From a virus, in IMG/VR virus record IMGVR_UViG_3300038441_000032, positions 1-21,723 of that record: DNA of 21,723 bases. One strand, written 5' to 3'. The translations under genes were made by a program, and so were the position numbers. Below are positions 1 through 21,506 of the stretch, piece by piece (position 1 is the stretch's first letter; each line of letters starts with the position of its first letter). The notes beneath the pieces were generated by a model. It saw only the letters and a list, made by a program, of their open reading frames with translations, ran no database searches and was not told where the DNA came from.

Positions 1-2418
1 AGGGTCCGGGCCCGTCACGAGGATGCCCGCGGAACCGGTACCGGAGACCACGTTGTCCGCAATCACAGCGCTCTTCCAGGCGTAGGCGCGGATACCCTCC
101 TGAAGAGTCGCTTCTATTCGGCATCCCAGGATCTGAATGTTCTGGGCGTAGGTAGTGGCGTTATAACTGGTGTGTGAACCAACGGCCCGGCCAAATCCCC
201 CGAGCCTGTCAGACGGACCAAAGTAGCACCCCTGTACCAGGACGTTCTTGCAAGGAGTCCCATCCATAGCGCCATTGATGCCGGAAAGAGGGATTGCCCA
301 GTCAATCTGAATGGCTTCCCTGAAACCGGACGACTGATCAACGGTGTTGTCTCTGAAACCTTCGAATCGGCAGTTCAAAACCTTGACGTTCTGAACGCCT
401 ACCATGTCGATACCATGTCCACTGGAGACGTTCCGGATGGTCACTCCATCGAAGACAACATTGTTGTTGTGACTCAGAAGGAATCCGTTGTTGAGAGAAG
501 TAGCCGTCCCGGTGGTTCCATCAGAGGCGTTCTGATCCCAGATTCCGCCGTAAACTCGAATGTTCGAGTGACCGTTGTACCCGGTCAGTGCGTTGTCCGT
601 GTTCCGGTAGAACTTGGCAAGGCCCCGGTCCGCAGTGTTCTTGATTGTTGCTCCGTGGGCAACAATCGTGGTCCCGGACAGGACGTTCAGGTAGTCCGTA
701 ATGGCGTAGGTGTACCCTGCCGGGAACTCCACTGTGCTACCCGGCAAGGAGGCCGCCACATCGAGGGCGGCCTGGATAGCGGGCCGGTCATCAATAGCCC
801 CGTCTCCCACAGCTCCGTAGTGCCGGACGTTGATCCTGTTTCGGCTCGACACCCGAGCCTCGGCGTAGTTGATGCCAGCTACCTGACTGATCGCATGGAG
901 GTCCACCCTGTTGTTGGTGGCATCGTTCACCAGGCCCTTGAGGGCACCGTGAAGGTATGCGCCGGCAAGCTGGACGTCTCGGGCGCCAGTGATTCGGACA
1001 CCGTAGTCAGGGCTGGTGCCCGCGGTGCCTCCGTCATCCGTACCTACGTAGCAGGTGACTCCTGTAGCAACTACAGGGGCTTGGTTGCTGAGCCGAAGTC
1101 CGGCGTAGCCCCCACCACCAGGACCGCCGTTACGGCCATCCCGACGAGTCATGAGCCCCTGGATCAGGAAGGCTCCGTTACCGGAGGCGTCGACTCGGAC
1201 ACCATCCCAGCCATTACGGTCAGTGGAACAACCAGTCATGGTCATGGAGCCACTACCCGGCCAGTTCCCCCAGCCTCCAGTCACATGGAAGCCGTAGTTA
1301 CCATTCCACTCCGCACGGGAATGAGTCACGATACTGTTTGCGCAGTTGGTGAGCTTGACTCCAGTAGACCAGGACCCGATGATCTGGCAGTCCTCAAGGG
1401 TCAGGTCGGTGTTCCGCTCGAAGGACATGCCGTTCACATGGCAGTTGTCCACCATGACGGAGTGGAGACGCCAGGAGTAAGGCCACTCGTCAGCGGCATT
1501 GGCCGCGGTGACGATGCCGTTGTTCGGCATCTGACGGACACACACGTCTCTGAGGACCACGTTCTGAACGTTGCCCTTTGAGTAGATGCCGTCAAGGGAA
1601 CCGGTCGGGACCTTGGAGCCGTCAAGCATCAGGTTGAGCAGCCGCTGTTCCCCGTTAATAGCGGGGTGGTCTCCGTCGTCCTCACCGATGATGTTGATCA
1701 TTGCACCTGTGGTGAAGGTTGGAGCGGCCTGAAGGTAGCAGGGCCACTCGTCTCCGACCATCCCAGGTCCAACCATCAGATTGGAGTGGGACCCCATGAG
1801 GGTCACACCTCGGGGAAGGTCCAGAGGGTATGAGACCTTATAAATACCCTGGGGGAAATACACAACTCCGCCGTAGCCGGCCTCGTCGATCGCGGTCTGA
1901 ATAGCCGCGGTGTCATCCGTAGCCCCATCACCCTTGGCACCGTAGGGGTTGTTCTTGACATTGAGCCAATGAGTGCCCCCTGAGCTGTCCCCGCTGAGGG
2001 CGGGGAGCTGGGAGGACGGGACCTTGCCCGAAGAGTCCAGTGTGGCTATGCCGTTGGCCGAGCCCTTCTGAGCTTCCATCTCGGCAAGAGCATCTGCCTT
2101 TGCCCCGTGGGGATCAGGAGTATTGAGGTGCTGGGAAAGAGCACTGGAGGTATTAACCGGAGTCAGGGCCACCCGCCCTGCCCCGAAGTCAACATAGAGA
2201 AGGTCAACGCCTTCGGGACCATAAAAATGCCCCACCATTCCCTGACCATCAGAGGTCAGGTTCATAATGGGGTTGCCGTCAGCATCCTGAAGGTCAGTTA
2301 TCTGAACGGCTTCCGCTCCCGGACCGGCGTAGACAGTGCCAGTTGCGCTGGGGACTCGGGAGCCGTCGATGTCCTCCGCTACGTCAGCCGCGGAGCCACC
2401 AAAGAGATTACGAGCCAT
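1..2418 (-). CDS. Tail spike / receptor-binding protein with two tandem pectate-lyase-like beta-helix domains (partial, C-terminus beyond left edge)
   Basis: The frame is open for 806 codons from an ATG at 2418 to the window edge, so the protein is truncated at its C-terminus by the window. GGAGGG lies 6 nt before the ATG. Residues 1-128 look like a virion-attachment and linker region ending in SGKVPSSQLP (about 129-138), a linker motif common in phage fibres. A pectate-lyase-3-type entry motif, YGAKGDGATDD, follows at about 158-168 with VVYFPQGIYKVSYPLDL after it. A second one, YGAVGDGAIDD, appears at about 532-542 with VEFPAGYTYAI. Each is followed by short Asn/Gly/Val-rich repeats (for example VLRDVCVRQMPNNGI and VLNCRFEGF) typical of right-handed beta-helices. 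By family knowledge such spikes bind or cleave surface glycans. Cleavage here is inference, because catalytic residues cannot be assigned by eye. It is the last gene of the tail cluster in this window. Confidence 0.85.
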   Translation of the reverse strand, partial: MARNLFGGSAADVAEDIDGSRVPSATGTVYAGPGAEAVQITDLQDADGNPIMNLTSDGQGMVGHFYGPEGVDLLYVDFGAGRVALTPVNTSSALSQHLNTPDPHGAKADALAEMEAQKGSANGIATLDSSGKVPSSQLPALSGDSSGGTHWLNVKNNPYGAKGDGATDDTAAIQTAIDEAGYGGVVYFPQGIYKVSYPLDLPRGVTLMGSHSNLMVGPGMVGDEWPCYLQAAPTFTTGAMINIIGEDDGDHPAINGEQRLLNLMLDGSKVPTGSLDGIYSKGNVQNVVLRDVCVRQMPNNGIVTAANAADEWPYSWRLHSVMVDNCHVNGMSFERNTDLTLEDCQIIGSWSTGVKLTNCANSIVTHSRAEWNGNYGFHVTGGWGNWPGSGSMTMTGCSTDRNGWDGVRVDASGNGAFLIQGLMTRRDGRNGGPGGGGYAGLRLSNQAPVVATGVTCYVGTDDGGTAGTSPDYGVRITGARDVQLAGAYLHGALKGLVNDATNNRVDLHAISQVAGINYAEARVSSRNRINVRHYGAVGDGAIDDRPAIQAALDVAASLPGSTVEFPAGYTYAITDYLNVLSGTTIVAHGATIKNTADRGLAKFYRNTDNALTGYNGHSNIRVYGGIWDQNASDGTTGTATSLNNGFLLSHNNNVVFDGVTIRNVSSGHGIDMVGVQNVKVLNCRFEGFRDNTVDQSSGFREAIQIDWAIPLSGINGAMDGTPCKNVLVQGCYFGPSDRLGGFGRAVGSHTSYNATTYAQNIQILGCRIEATLQEGIRAYAWKSAVIADNVVSGTGSAGILVTGPDP

Positions 2419-2429
2419 GGGGCTCCCTC

Positions 2430-3497
2430 CTAGTCAAATTGATTCGTCTCATACACCCCTGAAACAAGAAGTTCCGATTTACCGGGAATGATCCTTAGGC
2501 CGTCCAGTCCATCGGGTGTGTCTACGTTGGGGTAATACAGGTAGGCGCTGGTATTGCCGCCGGCCGAACCGCGGACCTTGATATCCACGAAGTTGGGCAA
2601 ACCATTTCGGCGCTCAGGATTGTCGAGAAAGCCGTGAAGGACGAACCGGGTAACCCGACTGGCAGCCACGGGGAGTGTGAAGCCGATGATCCACCCGTCA
2701 CCAGTCGCTTCCACCGCCTTGGTGGAGGTGTTGTTGACCTGTATGGAGAACTGGACTGTTCCGGGAGCTGTGTATCTCCACCAGCCCTTACGGTTTGCTG
2801 CGGTAGGCTTATTGCTCACGGTGAACAGATCAGGTGTGTAGGCCCTACGCTTGCCCAGGTGTCGAGCAATGAAGATGCCGTCACGTCCCTTGAAAAACTC
2901 CTGCTGGGTATCTCCGCTGTTGTTGTTCGAGTCCATATCGACAACGACACTGCCCTGAGGACTTCCCGCGGCCACCAGGGAGGCATTCCAGGGGGCGTAC
3001 GTTGCGCCAGGCGCATCAAAGCGCCTGCGGTCACTCAGGGTCCGGGCACCGTTGTTCTTCTCAGCCAGAACCCGCCAGACTGGCATCTCCCAGACACCTC
3101 CCACGACCCGCTGAACCTGAGGTTCAACAGGACTGGTGGCCGCCTGGCCCGTCTTGATAGCAAGGTTGGCGGAGCCGGCTGCCATGTCCAGCCGAATGAC
3201 CACCAGGTCCATTCGGTCAGTGGCCCCGGAGTTGGTGGGGACAGGGAGGCTCAGAGGAGCATCATTCTTGTAGTAGAAGCCGCCAACCCAAGCGGCTCCT
3301 GCCTGGATCACAATGTCCGTTCCCACGATTTCTGCGTTCAAGGGAAGAGCCGCAGAGGTATAGGTGTTGCTGACCAACTGGAAGTCAATCCGATCCGGGC
3401 CCCACAGGTGTGACATACTCTGCCATTCCACCTGGGACACCATCTCTGAACCACCACCAGCAGAAGCCGCAGCAAACGGGTAGCTGATTTCTGCCAT
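2430..3497 (-). CDS. Minor tail / baseplate-upper protein
   Basis: This encodes 355 residues, with the ATG at 3497 immediately after the stop of the Gp37-like gene (1-nt gap). The N-terminus (MAEISYPFAAASAGGG, then VSQVEWQSMSHLWG) resembles actinophage minor tail proteins that begin with a short 'all-positions/quantity' domain: residues 60-160 contain DIVIQAGAAWVGGFYY and DRMDLVVIRLD. The C-terminal half (about 190-355) is rich in beta-strand-like sequence (TVQFSIQVNN, RFVLHGFLD) and may be a jelly-roll or carbohydrate-binding module. Position between the Gp37-like protein and the spike suggests a baseplate or fibre-connector role. No catalytic motif is visible. The exact function is inferred from gene order. 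Confidence 0.75.
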   Translation of the reverse strand: MAEISYPFAAASAGGGSEMVSQVEWQSMSHLWGPDRIDFQLVSNTYTSAALPLNAEIVGTDIVIQAGAAWVGGFYYKNDAPLSLPVPTNSGATDRMDLVVIRLDMAAGSANLAIKTGQAATSPVEPQVQRVVGGVWEMPVWRVLAEKNNGARTLSDRRRFDAPGATYAPWNASLVAAGSPQGSVVVDMDSNNNSGDTQQEFFKGRDGIFIARHLGKRRAYTPDLFTVSNKPTAANRKGWWRYTAPGTVQFSIQVNNTSTKAVEATGDGWIIGFTLPVAASRVTRFVLHGFLDNPERRNGLPNFVDIKVRGSAGGNTSAYLYYPNVDTPDGLDGLRIIPGKSELLVSGVYETNQFD

Positions 3498-3498
3498 A

Positions 3499-4869
3499 TC
3501 ACATCCTCGCTTCCAGTTTGCGCAGCTTTTCTCTCATCTCAAATACTGATCTGTAGAGGTTCAAAGGATCGTTGGTTCCCTGCTCACCGATCTTCGGAGC
3601 AATAGTGTGGGCGTTTCCTCCGTCATCTACGGTGATGGTGACCTCACGAACCATGTCCACATAGGAGGTTCCGTCGATCTCAACGGTCACGAGATCCCCT
3701 ACGAAGTAATCCCTGCCGAACTTGACCTGCTCTGTATCAATGGGGTAGATCTGAAAGTTTCCCGACTTCTCGCCCTCCTTGAGGACTTCATCAGCAGCCT
3801 GTTCCACGACATCCAAGTAGTGGGCAACCGCAACAGGCTTGGCCGCTGTTATGGCGCTCTTCAGATTCGCCAGGGTGGTGCTGTTCTGGTTAGCGTTGTA
3901 CGCGGCTCTGGCTGTAGTGAGCTGGGGAGTCCATTCCTGTCCATCGGGGTTCATTCCGATGTCCTCGATCCCCTCCTCAGAAGTCGTGGTGACGAGCTGG
4001 GGCTGTCCTGTCTTGGACGTCTTCAGAGGGACGTCCCTCCGGTCTACGAACTGCTCTATCTGGAGACTCCATTCGGTCTCCGATGCAGCATCCACCTTTT
4101 GCCAGATGTAGCGCTCTTTGCCCTCGCCCTGGCAAGCGACAATGACCCTGGTGACCTTAGGAGCCGACAGAGTCCATACGTACTCACGAAGGTTTCCTAG
4201 CTCAGGGGAGAACCGGACCTCTTTGGAGAGGTCCCGTGGCTCGTAGATGTCCAGATCAATCGTTTTGGTGTCGGGGCTGTAGAGCAGCCTCCAGCCCGTC
4301 TTCTTGTCACTGCACCACTCGAAGAACTTCTCTCCGAGCACGTCATACCGAAGGGTGTCTGACTTGGCGGTTCCTCCAAGAGCCGGCTCTAGGCCCGTGT
4401 TGACCCCTGCTACCCGTCGGTCTGCCACCGCGGACATGCCTACGGACTTCTCCAGCTCGTTCCAGATGAGCTTGGCCGGCTCCGCCTTGACGTTCCTGGT
4501 TGAGATCGAGGAAGCGTACTGCTGAGGAATTGTCCTGGAAGGGTCCGGAAATGCCAATCGACTGTAAGCCAGCTTGTTGTCAGTCTTCCCACCAACGAAC
4601 ACAGACCCTCGTGAAGAGTGTTGCTGAGTTGTCCAGTAGGTTTGGAAATCCTCAATCTGACCAGTCAAAATGGGCTTCTCCACGCCATCCTGATAGATGG
4701 CGACTCCTCCACCTCTCTCCAGAAGCCTGGACTGTTCAGTACCGTTCTTGACCAGAAGCTTCCAAGAGCCCTGGTCACAGAACTGAATCACCATGTCAAG
4801 CTGTATCCAAGTGTCAATCTCACCAATCCGATTCAGGTCCTTGTCTCGTACCTCGATCCGGTATCCCAT
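3499..4869 (-). CDS. Gp37-like minor tail protein (Siphovirus ReqiPepy6 Gp37-like family)
   Basis: This encodes 456 residues, with the ATG at 4869 one nucleotide past the distal tail gene's stop. The N-terminal part (MGYRIEVRDKDLNRIGEID, then a W..L.VIQFCDQGSWKLLV stretch) and the central LRYDVLGEKFFEWCSDKKTG / GWRLLYSPDTKTIDLDIYEP region fit the Sipho_Gp37 family. That family sits at the tail tip, analogous to the Tal/gp27-type hub below the distal tail protein. The C-terminal region (about 370-456) contains YFVGDLVTVEIDG, like hub beta-barrels, and ends in a short predicted helix (FEMREKLRKLEARM). Location directly after the Dit-like gene supports a tail-tip hub role. No peptidase motif is visible. 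Confidence 0.8.
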   Translation of the reverse strand: MGYRIEVRDKDLNRIGEIDTWIQLDMVIQFCDQGSWKLLVKNGTEQSRLLERGGGVAIYQDGVEKPILTGQIEDFQTYWTTQQHSSRGSVFVGGKTDNKLAYSRLAFPDPSRTIPQQYASSISTRNVKAEPAKLIWNELEKSVGMSAVADRRVAGVNTGLEPALGGTAKSDTLRYDVLGEKFFEWCSDKKTGWRLLYSPDTKTIDLDIYEPRDLSKEVRFSPELGNLREYVWTLSAPKVTRVIVACQGEGKERYIWQKVDAASETEWSLQIEQFVDRRDVPLKTSKTGQPQLVTTTSEEGIEDIGMNPDGQEWTPQLTTARAAYNANQNSTTLANLKSAITAAKPVAVAHYLDVVEQAADEVLKEGEKSGNFQIYPIDTEQVKFGRDYFVGDLVTVEIDGTSYVDMVREVTITVDDGGNAHTIAPKIGEQGTNDPLNLYRSVFEMREKLRKLEARM

Positions 4870-4870
4870 A

Positions 4871-5863
4871 TCAGTAGCCCTCGTATCTCGGCTGAAATAC
4901 CAGCCTCACCTTTGCGCTCGTTGATCCGGGGACAATGTCCACGGTGCATTCAGACTCTCCTTCTGGGATAGGCCAAAGCTGAGGACTGGCGTCCAGGTCA
5001 GGCCAATAGTTCGTGCCGAGGTCATCCTTGAGGGACTTGAATCCGGGCCTTGTGTCGACGATCAGAGTCCGTCCGCCGGCCACCACGTCCGAGCTGTCAC
5101 CAGGCGCAGTGACTCCGAAGGACTGCCCAGAGGGACTGGTAAACCGGAAGCCCTTGATAGGGCCTGTAAGTTCCCACCTTGGCCAGGCTTCTACATCGCC
5201 CGGATTGTCCACGCTGACCGTGGACCCTGAGATAAGACCTGCGTTCAGGCGCAGGGGGTAGAAAGCCTCTGTGGTGGAGAGGAACGGCCGTCCTTCCCCG
5301 AAGGACCATTGAGCGACCTGGACATCATCCGAGAAGAAGTAGGGGTCATAAGCCACAAGCTGAATGCCGAACTTCTTCCAGGTGAACCCTGCCTGGTCCT
5401 GGGACTCGCTGCCTTCCATACCTGTCTTGTAGTAGCACCTTAGGTAACGCGGTATAGCGTCACCTTCAACGAACTTAAGAACACAGAACCCCTTCTTGGG
5501 GTTCAGAGCCGAGATGAGCCGGCTCTTGATATCCCGAACAGTCCGCCTGTCGATACCGTGCAGATAGACTGGGAGCATGATCTCTCGGGCAACTGCCCTG
5601 GCATCCCGGAATATCCCTCCGTCCAAGTTAGGACTGTCATCCGCGTGCAATTCAAAGGGAGGTGCATCCAAACCCGTGGGACCGGGCATCATGAAGATGC
5701 CCGGCCAACGAGGATCAGAGAAGTCAGTGAGGGGGATCTCCTCCCCCTCACCGTTCTTCCCTGCGATAGACACGTATGTCCTCCCCCAGTGCACCGGTAC
5801 CGGAGGGGTCGGCTCTGTCGGAATGGTTTCCGGAGGAGCCGCCCGTAGCACCGGAATAGGCAT
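4871..5863 (-). CDS. Distal tail protein (Dit-like)
   Basis: This encodes 330 residues, with the ATG at 5863 preceded by GAGGTGG 5 nt upstream. It is the first gene after the tape measure, the standard place of the distal tail protein that caps the tail tube and anchors the tip. The sequence has the expected two-part layout. Residues about 25-200 include DPRWPGIFMMPGPTGLDAPP and a REIMLPVYLHG strand followed by RRTVRDIKSRLISALNP and LKFVEGDAIPRYLRCYYKTG, then VAYDPYFFSDDV, a signature of Dit-type N-terminal domains. A beta-rich C-terminal domain (about 210-330) includes PRWELTGPI and IVDTRPGFKS. The N-terminal 25 residues are proline-rich (PPETIPTEPTPPVPV) and may be an extension. The family call rests on motif recall and position. 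Confidence 0.8.
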   Translation of the reverse strand: MPIPVLRAAPPETIPTEPTPPVPVHWGRTYVSIAGKNGEGEEIPLTDFSDPRWPGIFMMPGPTGLDAPPFELHADDSPNLDGGIFRDARAVAREIMLPVYLHGIDRRTVRDIKSRLISALNPKKGFCVLKFVEGDAIPRYLRCYYKTGMEGSESQDQAGFTWKKFGIQLVAYDPYFFSDDVQVAQWSFGEGRPFLSTTEAFYPLRLNAGLISGSTVSVDNPGDVEAWPRWELTGPIKGFRFTSPSGQSFGVTAPGDSSDVVAGGRTLIVDTRPGFKSLKDDLGTNYWPDLDASPQLWPIPEGESECTVDIVPGSTSAKVRLVFQPRYEGY

Positions 5864-18567: not shown

Positions 18568-19059
18568 TTACTTGATGTGCTTCCAGCTCCTCCGAGATGC
18601 GGCGGAGTAAACAGTCTGTCGAGAGAGACCGAGGTCTCTAGCAATCAATGCGCAGTTCTCGCCCCCGTCGTACCTCTTACGTATGAGTGGTACAAGGTCT
18701 TCTGTCAGAACGGCCATGGGACTCTTGGAGCCATCACAGGACTTTCCGTTACGCCGAGCGTCGTAGAAGTTGTCTGACTTGTCACCAACAACCAAGTTGT
18801 CTATCCGGTTGTTGGAGGGATTGTCATCCCAGTGTCGAATGAGCTTCCCTTCCGGGATCTCTCCATGGAAGGCTTCGTAGATCAGACGATGCTTCTTCTC
18901 GTTCTTCCCACCAACCTTCCTCAGGTCAACCTGAAGATGGCCGTGCGCGTCTCGACTACGGCCAACCTCACCACGGGGTGAGAAGACTCGCCCGTCACTG
19001 GAAGCAAAGTAGCCGGGGAAGTTCAGCAAGGGAGCAAAGCTAGTCAACTCAGTTACCAC
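18568..19059 (-). CDS. NUMOD4-HNH homing-type endonuclease
   Basis: This encodes about 163 residues from a GTG at 19059, with GAAGG 6 nt upstream. A TTG at 19062 is an alternative. Either start overlaps the small terminase stop. An N-terminal NUMOD4 motif is visible (FPGYFASSDGRVFS, about 14-27). An HNH_3 core follows (HRLIYEAFHGEIPEGKLIRH, then DDNPSNNRIDNLVV). The C-terminal segment (SPMAVLTEDLVPLIRKRYDG, then ALIARDLGLSRQTVYSAASR) looks like a helix-turn-helix DNA reader. This architecture is that of free-standing phage homing endonucleases. Inserted between terS and terL, it probably spreads by cutting related phages at the terminase locus, although a packaging role cannot be excluded. 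Confidence 0.88.
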   Translation of the reverse strand: MVTELTSFAPLLNFPGYFASSDGRVFSPRGEVGRSRDAHGHLQVDLRKVGGKNEKKHRLIYEAFHGEIPEGKLIRHWDDNPSNNRIDNLVVGDKSDNFYDARRNGKSCDGSKSPMAVLTEDLVPLIRKRYDGGENCALIARDLGLSRQTVYSAASRRSWKHIK

Positions 19060-19477
19060 CAAACGCCTTCAGGAAGTTTTCCGTATCAGACACCAACTGC
19101 TCTGCGGCTTCTTCTTCAGAGAAGCCTTCGTCTTTCTTCTCCTCGAACTTCATCCGGAGCCTTGCCCTGTCCTCGTTGGTAGCTCCGAACTTGGCAACCC
19201 TCTGCCGGATCTCACCGGCCAACTTCCGATCACCCTTAACGAAGTCATCCACCAGGATGGTCACCATCTCCAGCTCAAACCAGTCAGTCTCAAGAAAGGT
19301 TGCTGACTGAGGAGCTGCTGCCCAGGTCTTCCAGAACTCCTTAGCCATAGATGTAGAGACCGGAAGAGTCCGCGGAAGCGGACGAGGGGGCCGAGACTCC
19401 TTGGAAAGCTCAGTCTCGTACTCGTGCTTGTTCCTACGGCGTGCGTTCTCCTTCGGGGCAGGTCCCCGACTACCCAT
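19049..19477 (-). CDS. terS: Terminase small subunit (P27 family)
   Basis: This encodes 142 residues from the ATG at 19477, chosen because GGAGGTGG lies about 7 nt upstream. It recognises phage DNA for packaging. The N-terminus GSRGPAPKENARRRNKHEYE is the hallmark basic start of P27-type small terminases. It is followed by RPLPRTLPVSTSMAKEFWKT and a helical oligomerisation part (WFELEMVTILVDDFVKGDRK, then QRVAKFGATNEDRARLRMKF). The acidic C-terminal tail (EEEAAEQLVSDTENFLKAFG) could contact the large subunit. The gene overlaps the upstream 55-residue gene by 8 nt and the downstream HNH gene by 11 nt. Confidence 0.85.
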   Translation of the reverse strand: MGSRGPAPKENARRRNKHEYETELSKESRPPRPLPRTLPVSTSMAKEFWKTWAAAPQSATFLETDWFELEMVTILVDDFVKGDRKLAGEIRQRVAKFGATNEDRARLRMKFEEKKDEGFSEEEAAEQLVSDTENFLKAFGGN

Positions 19478-20659: not shown

Positions 20660-20723
20660 TGGGTTAAGTATTGATGGCAGGGCCTAGGCGGTTCATGACT
20701 CCGTCATTATCAGCCCTACCAAG

Positions 20724-20795
20724 TGTGACGAGAGAGAATCGAACTCTCATCTTCCGGACCACAACCGGGTGCTCTAGCCGTTGAGCTACCGTCAC
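20724..20795 (-). tRNA. tRNA-His (anticodon GUG) with A73
   Basis: A 72-nt cloverleaf is visible. The acceptor GTGACGG pairs with TCGTCAC (one G-U). The D-arm is GCTC/GAGC with GG in the loop. The anticodon loop is TTGTGGT (anticodon GTG), its stem carrying a C27-A43 mismatch, and the T-arm is GAGAG-TTCGATT-CTCTC. CCA is not encoded. Bacterial tRNA-His normally pairs G-1 with C73. Here the preceding genomic base is G but position 73 is A. Confidence 0.9.
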
Positions 20796-21111: not shown

Positions 21112-21429
21112 CTAACCAAACTTCCTGGACTTGGCCTTGTGGTCCTCCTTGCAGAGGACCCACAGGTTGTCCAGCTCCCACGAACCGCCCTTGGCCACAG
21201 GGACAATGTGATCAACTTCCAGCTCGGATCTCTTTCCGCACATCTGGCAAGTGAACTTGTCCCGAGCCAACACCTGGGCCCTGATGGAGGGCCAGTTGCT
21301 AGGCCGGCTGAGGTTCCTGGCAGAGGTGTTCTGCCAGGCTCTCCGGGTCTGGTGCTTTGGGCACCGACCATCCCGGATGGTGGTGGAGGTGCAACCCTTG
21401 TCCAAGCAAATCGATTTTGCCCTTGGCAT
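21112..21429 (-). CDS. Small HNH endonuclease
   Basis: This encodes 105 residues from the ATG at 21429, chosen because GGAGGT lies 4 nt upstream; extending to a TTG would place the RBS inside the gene. An N-terminal zinc-knuckle-like segment is visible (Cys8, Cys13, Cys23, His26), then the HNH core: FTCQMCG (Cys61, Cys64), VDHIVPVAKGG (Asp73, His74), DNLWVLCKEDHKAKS (Asn88, Cys93, His97). It belongs to the compact HNH group found beside terminases, some of which (HK97 gp74 type) help the terminase cut at cos. Here it is about 2 kb from terS and on the same strand. A packaging-related role is plausible. A homing role is the alternative. Confidence 0.9.
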   Translation of the reverse strand: MPRAKSICLDKGCTSTTIRDGRCPKHQTRRAWQNTSARNLSRPSNWPSIRAQVLARDKFTCQMCGKRSELEVDHIVPVAKGGSWELDNLWVLCKEDHKAKSRKFG

Positions 21430-21506
21430 GGTCACCTCCACCAACAACCGAAGTAGGGGCCAGCCAGTGAGGAGCCTTAGCTTCCTGGGTGGCTGGTCAA
21501 GTCTCT

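Follow-up and report, generated by a model that had tools for sequence, protein, structure and literature searches.

Tail spikes are usually pictured as a conserved anchor that carries one exchanged receptor-binding body. The spike encoded at the end of the virus record studied here raises the question of whether a single chain can hold two such bodies and, if so, how it came by the second. We find that the two-helix spike pointed out in a preliminary description of this DNA is real and largely explained. Sequence matches and a structural model show two modules, separate family memberships and a shared exchange point. In our reading, to which we give a probability of about 0.72, this is the spike of a siphovirus related to Ibantik that gained a second, independent beta-helix of another family by exchange behind helix 1. 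In this spike, conservation extends from the anchor into the first helix, and the exchange would happen behind that helix.

The spike gene and its genomic setting

The window, by which we mean the whole stretch of DNA analysed, is an entire virus record of 21,723 bases. The tail spike gene is the frame 1-2418 on the minus strand (806 codons), which begins with an ATG at 2418 and is free of stop codons up to the record end, where its 3' end is cut. The C-terminus of the spike is missing and, as the preliminary description had stated, lies outside the window. In a relative whose gene has a stop codon (L020; L numbers are our labels for loci), the helix-2 family extends 226 residues past the window's cut-off point, and the complete spike is therefore probably about 1,030 aa long. 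The features are as follows.

1..2418 (-): tail spike gene, an open reading frame running to the record end; matches phrog_2234 (tail spike) and phrog_11699 (minor tail protein)
1972..2418 (-): candidate N-terminal anchor and connector, residues 1-149; common to Ibantik gp83, Success gp65 and viral contigs
877..1971 (-): beta-helix 1, residues about 150-514, phrog_11699 family; from Pfam, PHROG and the model
1912..1944 (-): first entry motif YGAKGDGATDD, residues 159-169; motif scan
838..876 (-): linker, residues 515-527; pLDDT below 50 at 519-526, and relatives switch C-terminal module or stop here
1..837 (-): beta-helix 2, residues 528-806, incomplete, of the phrog_2234 / SPO1 gp18.3 / PfbA type; from sequence matches, the model and the L020 model
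787..819 (-): second entry motif YGAVGDGAIDD, residues 534-544; motif scan
172..417 (-): stretch with the conserved helix-2 residues H668, D671, E701, Q704, D706 and H749; row conservation
4871-5863: minor tail/Dit-like gene, upstream of the spike; Pfam/PHROG
3499-4869: Sipho_Gp37 tail protein gene, upstream of the spike; Pfam/PHROG
2430-3497: gene with virion structural PHROG matches, upstream of the spike

At the DNA level the window comes nearest to Streptomyces phage Ibantik, with 79% identity across 43% of the window's length, and the host is therefore probably Streptomyces or a relative. The anchor and helix 1 together resemble two minor tail proteins, Ibantik gp83 (76% identity over residues 1-522) and Success gp65 (65% over residues 1-524), both preceded by three minor tail protein genes, as in the window. 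What differs is the part behind helix 1, where these proteins carry tails of 194 and 254 residues, respectively, in which no Pfam family was found. In both phages lysis genes follow the spike; the window ends before that point. The window's own spike follows the three tail genes listed above and so lies beside tail-tip genes, as expected of a trimeric tailspike, and residues 1-149 would act as its anchor. Elsewhere in the record, a tRNA-His (gtg) gene lies at 20723-20795 (-), and two open reading frames at 18568-19062 (-) and 21112-21447 (-) may encode HNH endonucleases, which they resemble by eye.

Two beta-helix modules in one chain

Both entry motifs that had been noted are present, YGAKGDGATDD at residue 159 and YGAVGDGAIDD at residue 534, 375 residues apart, and a degenerate form of the motif occurs at only these 2 places across the six frames of the window. 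Pfam families PF12708 (pectate-lyase/RHGA-epimerase type, E 4.6e-27) and PF13229 (Beta_helix, E 1.2e-16) each match 2 stretches of the spike. The window spike was modelled with AlphaFold2 from 31 alignment rows, which were picked by hand until the helix-2 rows fell on helix 2; a first joint alignment, in which the helix-2 relatives had been placed on helix 1, was discarded. The resulting single-chain model (mean pLDDT 80.6, pTM 0.51) shows beta-helix strands at about 150-514, a drop below pLDDT 50 at 519-526 and a new N-cap from 528 that repeats the strand-helix-strand-helix order that opens helix 1. Owing to the low pTM, and despite the confident domains, the mutual placing of the two helices is not fixed by the model. 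The view that the chain contains two separate helix modules is borne out both by this model and by relatives in which each module is found without the other.

Two spike families

Helix 1 belongs to phrog_11699, a spike family of Streptomyces phages (E 1.7e-69, residues 163-557), and the anchor and helix 1 together (the first 525 residues) share 63-78% identity with 9 viral-contig relatives. All 50 structural matches listed by VIA-align for the window model end between residues 505 and 527; among them, helix 1 is matched to AlgE4 (Z 37.7, 322 aligned, 2.5 A), phi29 gp12 (Z 35.2) and the Sf6 spike (Z 34.0). In a set of 46 sequences, cleared of four duplicate loci and of partial domains, the residues invariant in 46/46 include E257, D276, D338, E370, W371, D400, R401 and D427. 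Judged from the alignment, so many conserved charged and aromatic residues are as would be expected for a working groove. Two loci, L042 and L047, carry the helix-1 family twice in one chain; their second copies lose many of the first-copy invariants (e.g., N283, W316, D410, and R425) and retain all of those named above. A scan of genome contigs gave a sole relative, a helix-1-family locus in a bacterial contig of Streptomyces indicus (L107), perhaps in a prophage, whose matched range has the same length as that of L049.

Helix 2 belongs to a different family, phrog_2234 (E 5.8e-76, best stretch 524-800), and from residues 529-534 to 806 it is 64-72% identical to L016-L020 over 273-278 residues. 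In L020 this family stands directly behind an anchor-like N-terminus, and the helix-2 body can therefore stand without helix 1. The L020 model (pLDDT 81.3, pTM 0.80) contains one helix, from about 105 to 595, whose best match is PfbA of Streptococcus pneumoniae (VIA-align Z 39.3, 380 aligned, 2.1 A; Foldseek E 9.2e-17), with the epimerase modules of AlgE6 and AlgE4 behind it (Z 35). By sequence, helix 2 itself matches PfbA (3zpp) with E 9.2e-25, and the window model matches 4mr0_B, also PfbA, with 31% identity over 287 columns; the structural matches of L020 and of the window model thus place helix 2 in the PfbA-type fold. Among phage proteins, Bacillus phage SPO1 gp18.3 and Arthrobacter phage Hankly gp18 resemble helix 2 (37% and 40% identity, respectively) but have this type of helix without a full helix 1.

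An exchange slot behind helix 1

A helix-1 pattern scan of viral contigs returned 44 contigs, and 40 chains were counted after setting aside 4 that are cut early (L029, L030, L056, and L059). As such surveys, including those made for helix 2, for the junction and in genome contigs, capture only contigs with the exact peptide pattern, the counts given here are not frequencies in nature. Six of the 40 chains end 3-5 residues past the helix-1 match (L014, L023, L024, L025, L026, and L032). Eight carry an SGNH (GDSL-type) hydrolase (L007, L027, L028, L031, L035, L040, L039, and L041), two of them together with a LamG-type domain. A second helix is common in this spike family, being present in 11/40 chains with complete 3' ends (L022, L033, L051; L043-L046, L050, L058; L042, L047), which represent about three kinds because L043-L046 are nearly identical. 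Three chains with a possible further second helix (L036, L048, and L053) were left out of these 11; their phrog_11699 match spans a stretch of 62-75 residues only, and no Pfam beta-helix family was found in them. One chain, L055, has a helix-type entry module ahead of helix 1, and the other 11 (L008, L009, L011, L021, L034, L037, L038, L049, L052, L054, and L057) have other tails, HylP-type and K1-lyase C-terminal domains among them. Module classes come from a Pfam or PHROG scan of one member of each kind; within the SGNH and second-helix groups, L028 (93% identical to L027) and L044-L046 (99% to L043) were assigned by BLAST only, and L022 was scanned as L012, on the same contig.

Two cultured phages show module exchange directly. 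The first 430 residues of the GiJojo and LuckySocke proteins are 79% identical and the last 149 residues are 66% identical, and between these shared ends GiJojo has a pectate-lyase-type second helix (440-551) where LuckySocke has a HylP domain (518-672). A HylP-type domain (PF07212) also occurs behind helix 1 in L010/L021 and L013/L038, besides L111 (LuckySocke gp84), with E 9.3e-47 for L010 and E 2.5e-35 for LuckySocke. Like the window's spike, GiJojo gp76 and contigs L012, L043, L051, L042 and L047 have the helix-1 family followed by a second beta-helix, but their second helices fall outside the window's helix-2 family. As relatives diverge right behind helix 1, the position is, on sequence comparison, an exchange slot in these relatives. 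Where helix 1 is related but the second module differs or is missing, natural variants should make the share of each body in host range directly measurable.

Proposed mechanism and the roles of the two helices

We propose that the anchor joins the spike to the tail tip and is followed by a first right-handed beta-helix, a short linker and then helix 2 of another spike family, which would have come in when the module behind helix 1 was exchanged. The chain would form a homotrimer like other tailspikes, with the helices stacked end to end and helix 2 farther from the tail. Each helix would supply its own putative site for binding or cutting glycans, so that the phage may encounter first one and then another wall or capsule polymer, or two different parts of a single polymer. 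One module may bind and the other cleave different glycans, as the preliminary description had suggested.

That each helix binds or cuts a host surface glycan is probable. PfbA has a putative carbohydrate site formed by H293, Q296, Q331, E333 and H377 (PMC3718772). In our alignment, three of these five residues, H293, Q331 and H377, are identical in helix 2 (H668, Q704, and H749), and the other two, Q296 and E333 in the paper's numbering, are changed to D671 and D706. H668, Q704, D706 and H749 are kept in 21/21 rows of the helix-2 family, position 671 is D or E in 21/21, and E701 is present in 19/21. SPO1 gp18.3 is reported, in the available part of the source, to be one of the tail genes that gained mutations while the phage coevolved with hosts altered in teichoic acid genes (PMC10356755). 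On account of the conserved residues, the partial match to the PfbA site and the gp18.3 mutations, we think that both helices face wall or capsule glycans, with helix 2 farther out.

A division of labour in which helix 2 only adheres, in the manner of PfbA, and helix 1 is the sole enzyme, or the reverse, is somewhat unlikely, yet it is the strongest of the alternatives. In the experiments described in the available text, PfbA, which is a cell-wall protein and not a spike, neither acted as a lyase on the polysaccharides assayed nor bound glycosaminoglycans (PMC3718772), and the mutations seen in SPO1 gp18.3, itself of the helix-2 family, with teichoic-acid-changed hosts would fit receptor binding (PMC10356755). 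However, the two acidic positions kept in every helix-2 row examined, 671 and 706, stand where PfbA has Q296 and E333.

Far less probable is a single GH55- or PL6-like enzyme whose two helices, within one chain, share an active site at their interface. GH55 glucanases (3eqn, 8jhh) do have two beta-helical domains per chain, joined by a linker and with the active site between them, according to the accessible part of the description (PMC10637969), and the first PDB match of the window model in Foldseek is the GH55 enzyme 3eqn over 845 columns, with PL6 alginate lyases also listed. That match has a TM of 0.21 and an rmsd of 20 A, which speaks against the GH55 arrangement, though the placing of the helices in the window model is itself uncertain. 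Moreover, each helix is found without the other in relatives, and helix 1 is kept with unrelated modules behind it. The absence of GH55 from the 50 VIA-align matches listed for the window model carries no weight either way.

Within the reading that we prefer, of two independent helices brought together by exchange, it is possible, if tentative, that the position behind helix 1 serves as a plug-in slot, where a helix for a polymer common to the hosts is kept and the distal body, an enzyme or a binding body, is swapped. Its contents in the family would then range from nothing to an SGNH esterase, a HylP-type domain or several unrelated beta-helices. In the window's spike, the body of another spike would have been plugged in, giving two working glycan sites one behind the other, which would act first on one host polymer and then on a second.

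The pairing and the integrity of the contig

The spike has matches in 191 records of the phage collection, none of which covers 80% of it at one place. In 47 helix-2-family contigs, the frame that encodes helix 2 never includes a full helix 1 as well, the frames of L060 and L081 being open at the 5' end. The exact pairing of helix 1 and helix 2 was absent from these searches, outside which records very near to the window may lie, and a viral-contig scan aimed at the junction itself found a single locus, L108, with 38% identity over query residues 8-99. The searches returned no further example of the pairing, which is thus known from a single contig. A contig with both families in separate genes is IMGVR_UViG_3300037418_003348 (L051 and L017), in which the helix-1 spike also has a second helix.

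A chimeric contig, whose last 840 bases come from another phage and whose two-helix chain is an assembly error, could be suspected from a pairing not found elsewhere and a junction within 876 bases of the record end. We regard it as very improbable. The reading frame is kept, and the join falls where relatives change module. At third codon positions, helix 2 has a GC content of 0.68, which lies within the range of eight other window genes (0.64-0.70) and below that of six relatives with 64-72% identity (0.88-0.96). The base composition of helix 2 thus appears to fit this genome better than it fits those of its relatives, which argues against a chimera. It is no proof, as a more distant relative (L066, 49%) has a third-position GC of 0.77 and the family thus also occurs in lower-GC genomes. 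The codon-usage likelihood was non-discriminating, since the helix 2 of the relatives scored equal to that of the window under the window's usage.

The preliminary description had offered duplication followed by divergence as one origin of the two domains, and this part of it did not survive. The same entry module opens both helices, and pairs of the helix-1 family do occur in L042 and L047. However, BLAST joins the two halves of the spike only over the 60-residue entry module (43% identity), profile comparison aligns 131 columns in the N-terminal part, and helix 2 is much nearer to spikes that lack helix 1. Given the separate family of helix 2 and its alignment with helix 1 only at the entry module, tandem duplication of one helix was rejected with little hesitation. 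An unbroken beta-helix that buries the second motif was not returned by the structure prediction and is virtually excluded by the cap, linker and confidence drop between the helices in the model and by the six helix-1 relatives that end at the linker.

Relation to other two-helix proteins

Exchange behind a conserved helix 1 therefore remains our preferred account of the spike. Two-helix tail proteins have already been published, and the protein described here seems to combine known parts in a new way and not to be a new kind of protein. In the literature covered, with most subscription journals and preprints outside its scope, we found neither this pairing nor the exchange slot described. Closest in kind are the human gut phage phAss-1 and its relatives, whose tail fibres have two pectate lyase domains in AlphaFold2 models, as given in the available text (PMC10607447). 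Bdellovibrio Bd2133, a bacterial, phage-fibre-like protein, is similarly described in the accessible part of its report as a trimeric fibre with two beta-helix domains in the crystal structure (PMC10769870). A different arrangement is met among PMC6517402, PMC10653864 and PMC11652154, where the available portions describe helices of neighbouring trimer subunits, not two per chain.
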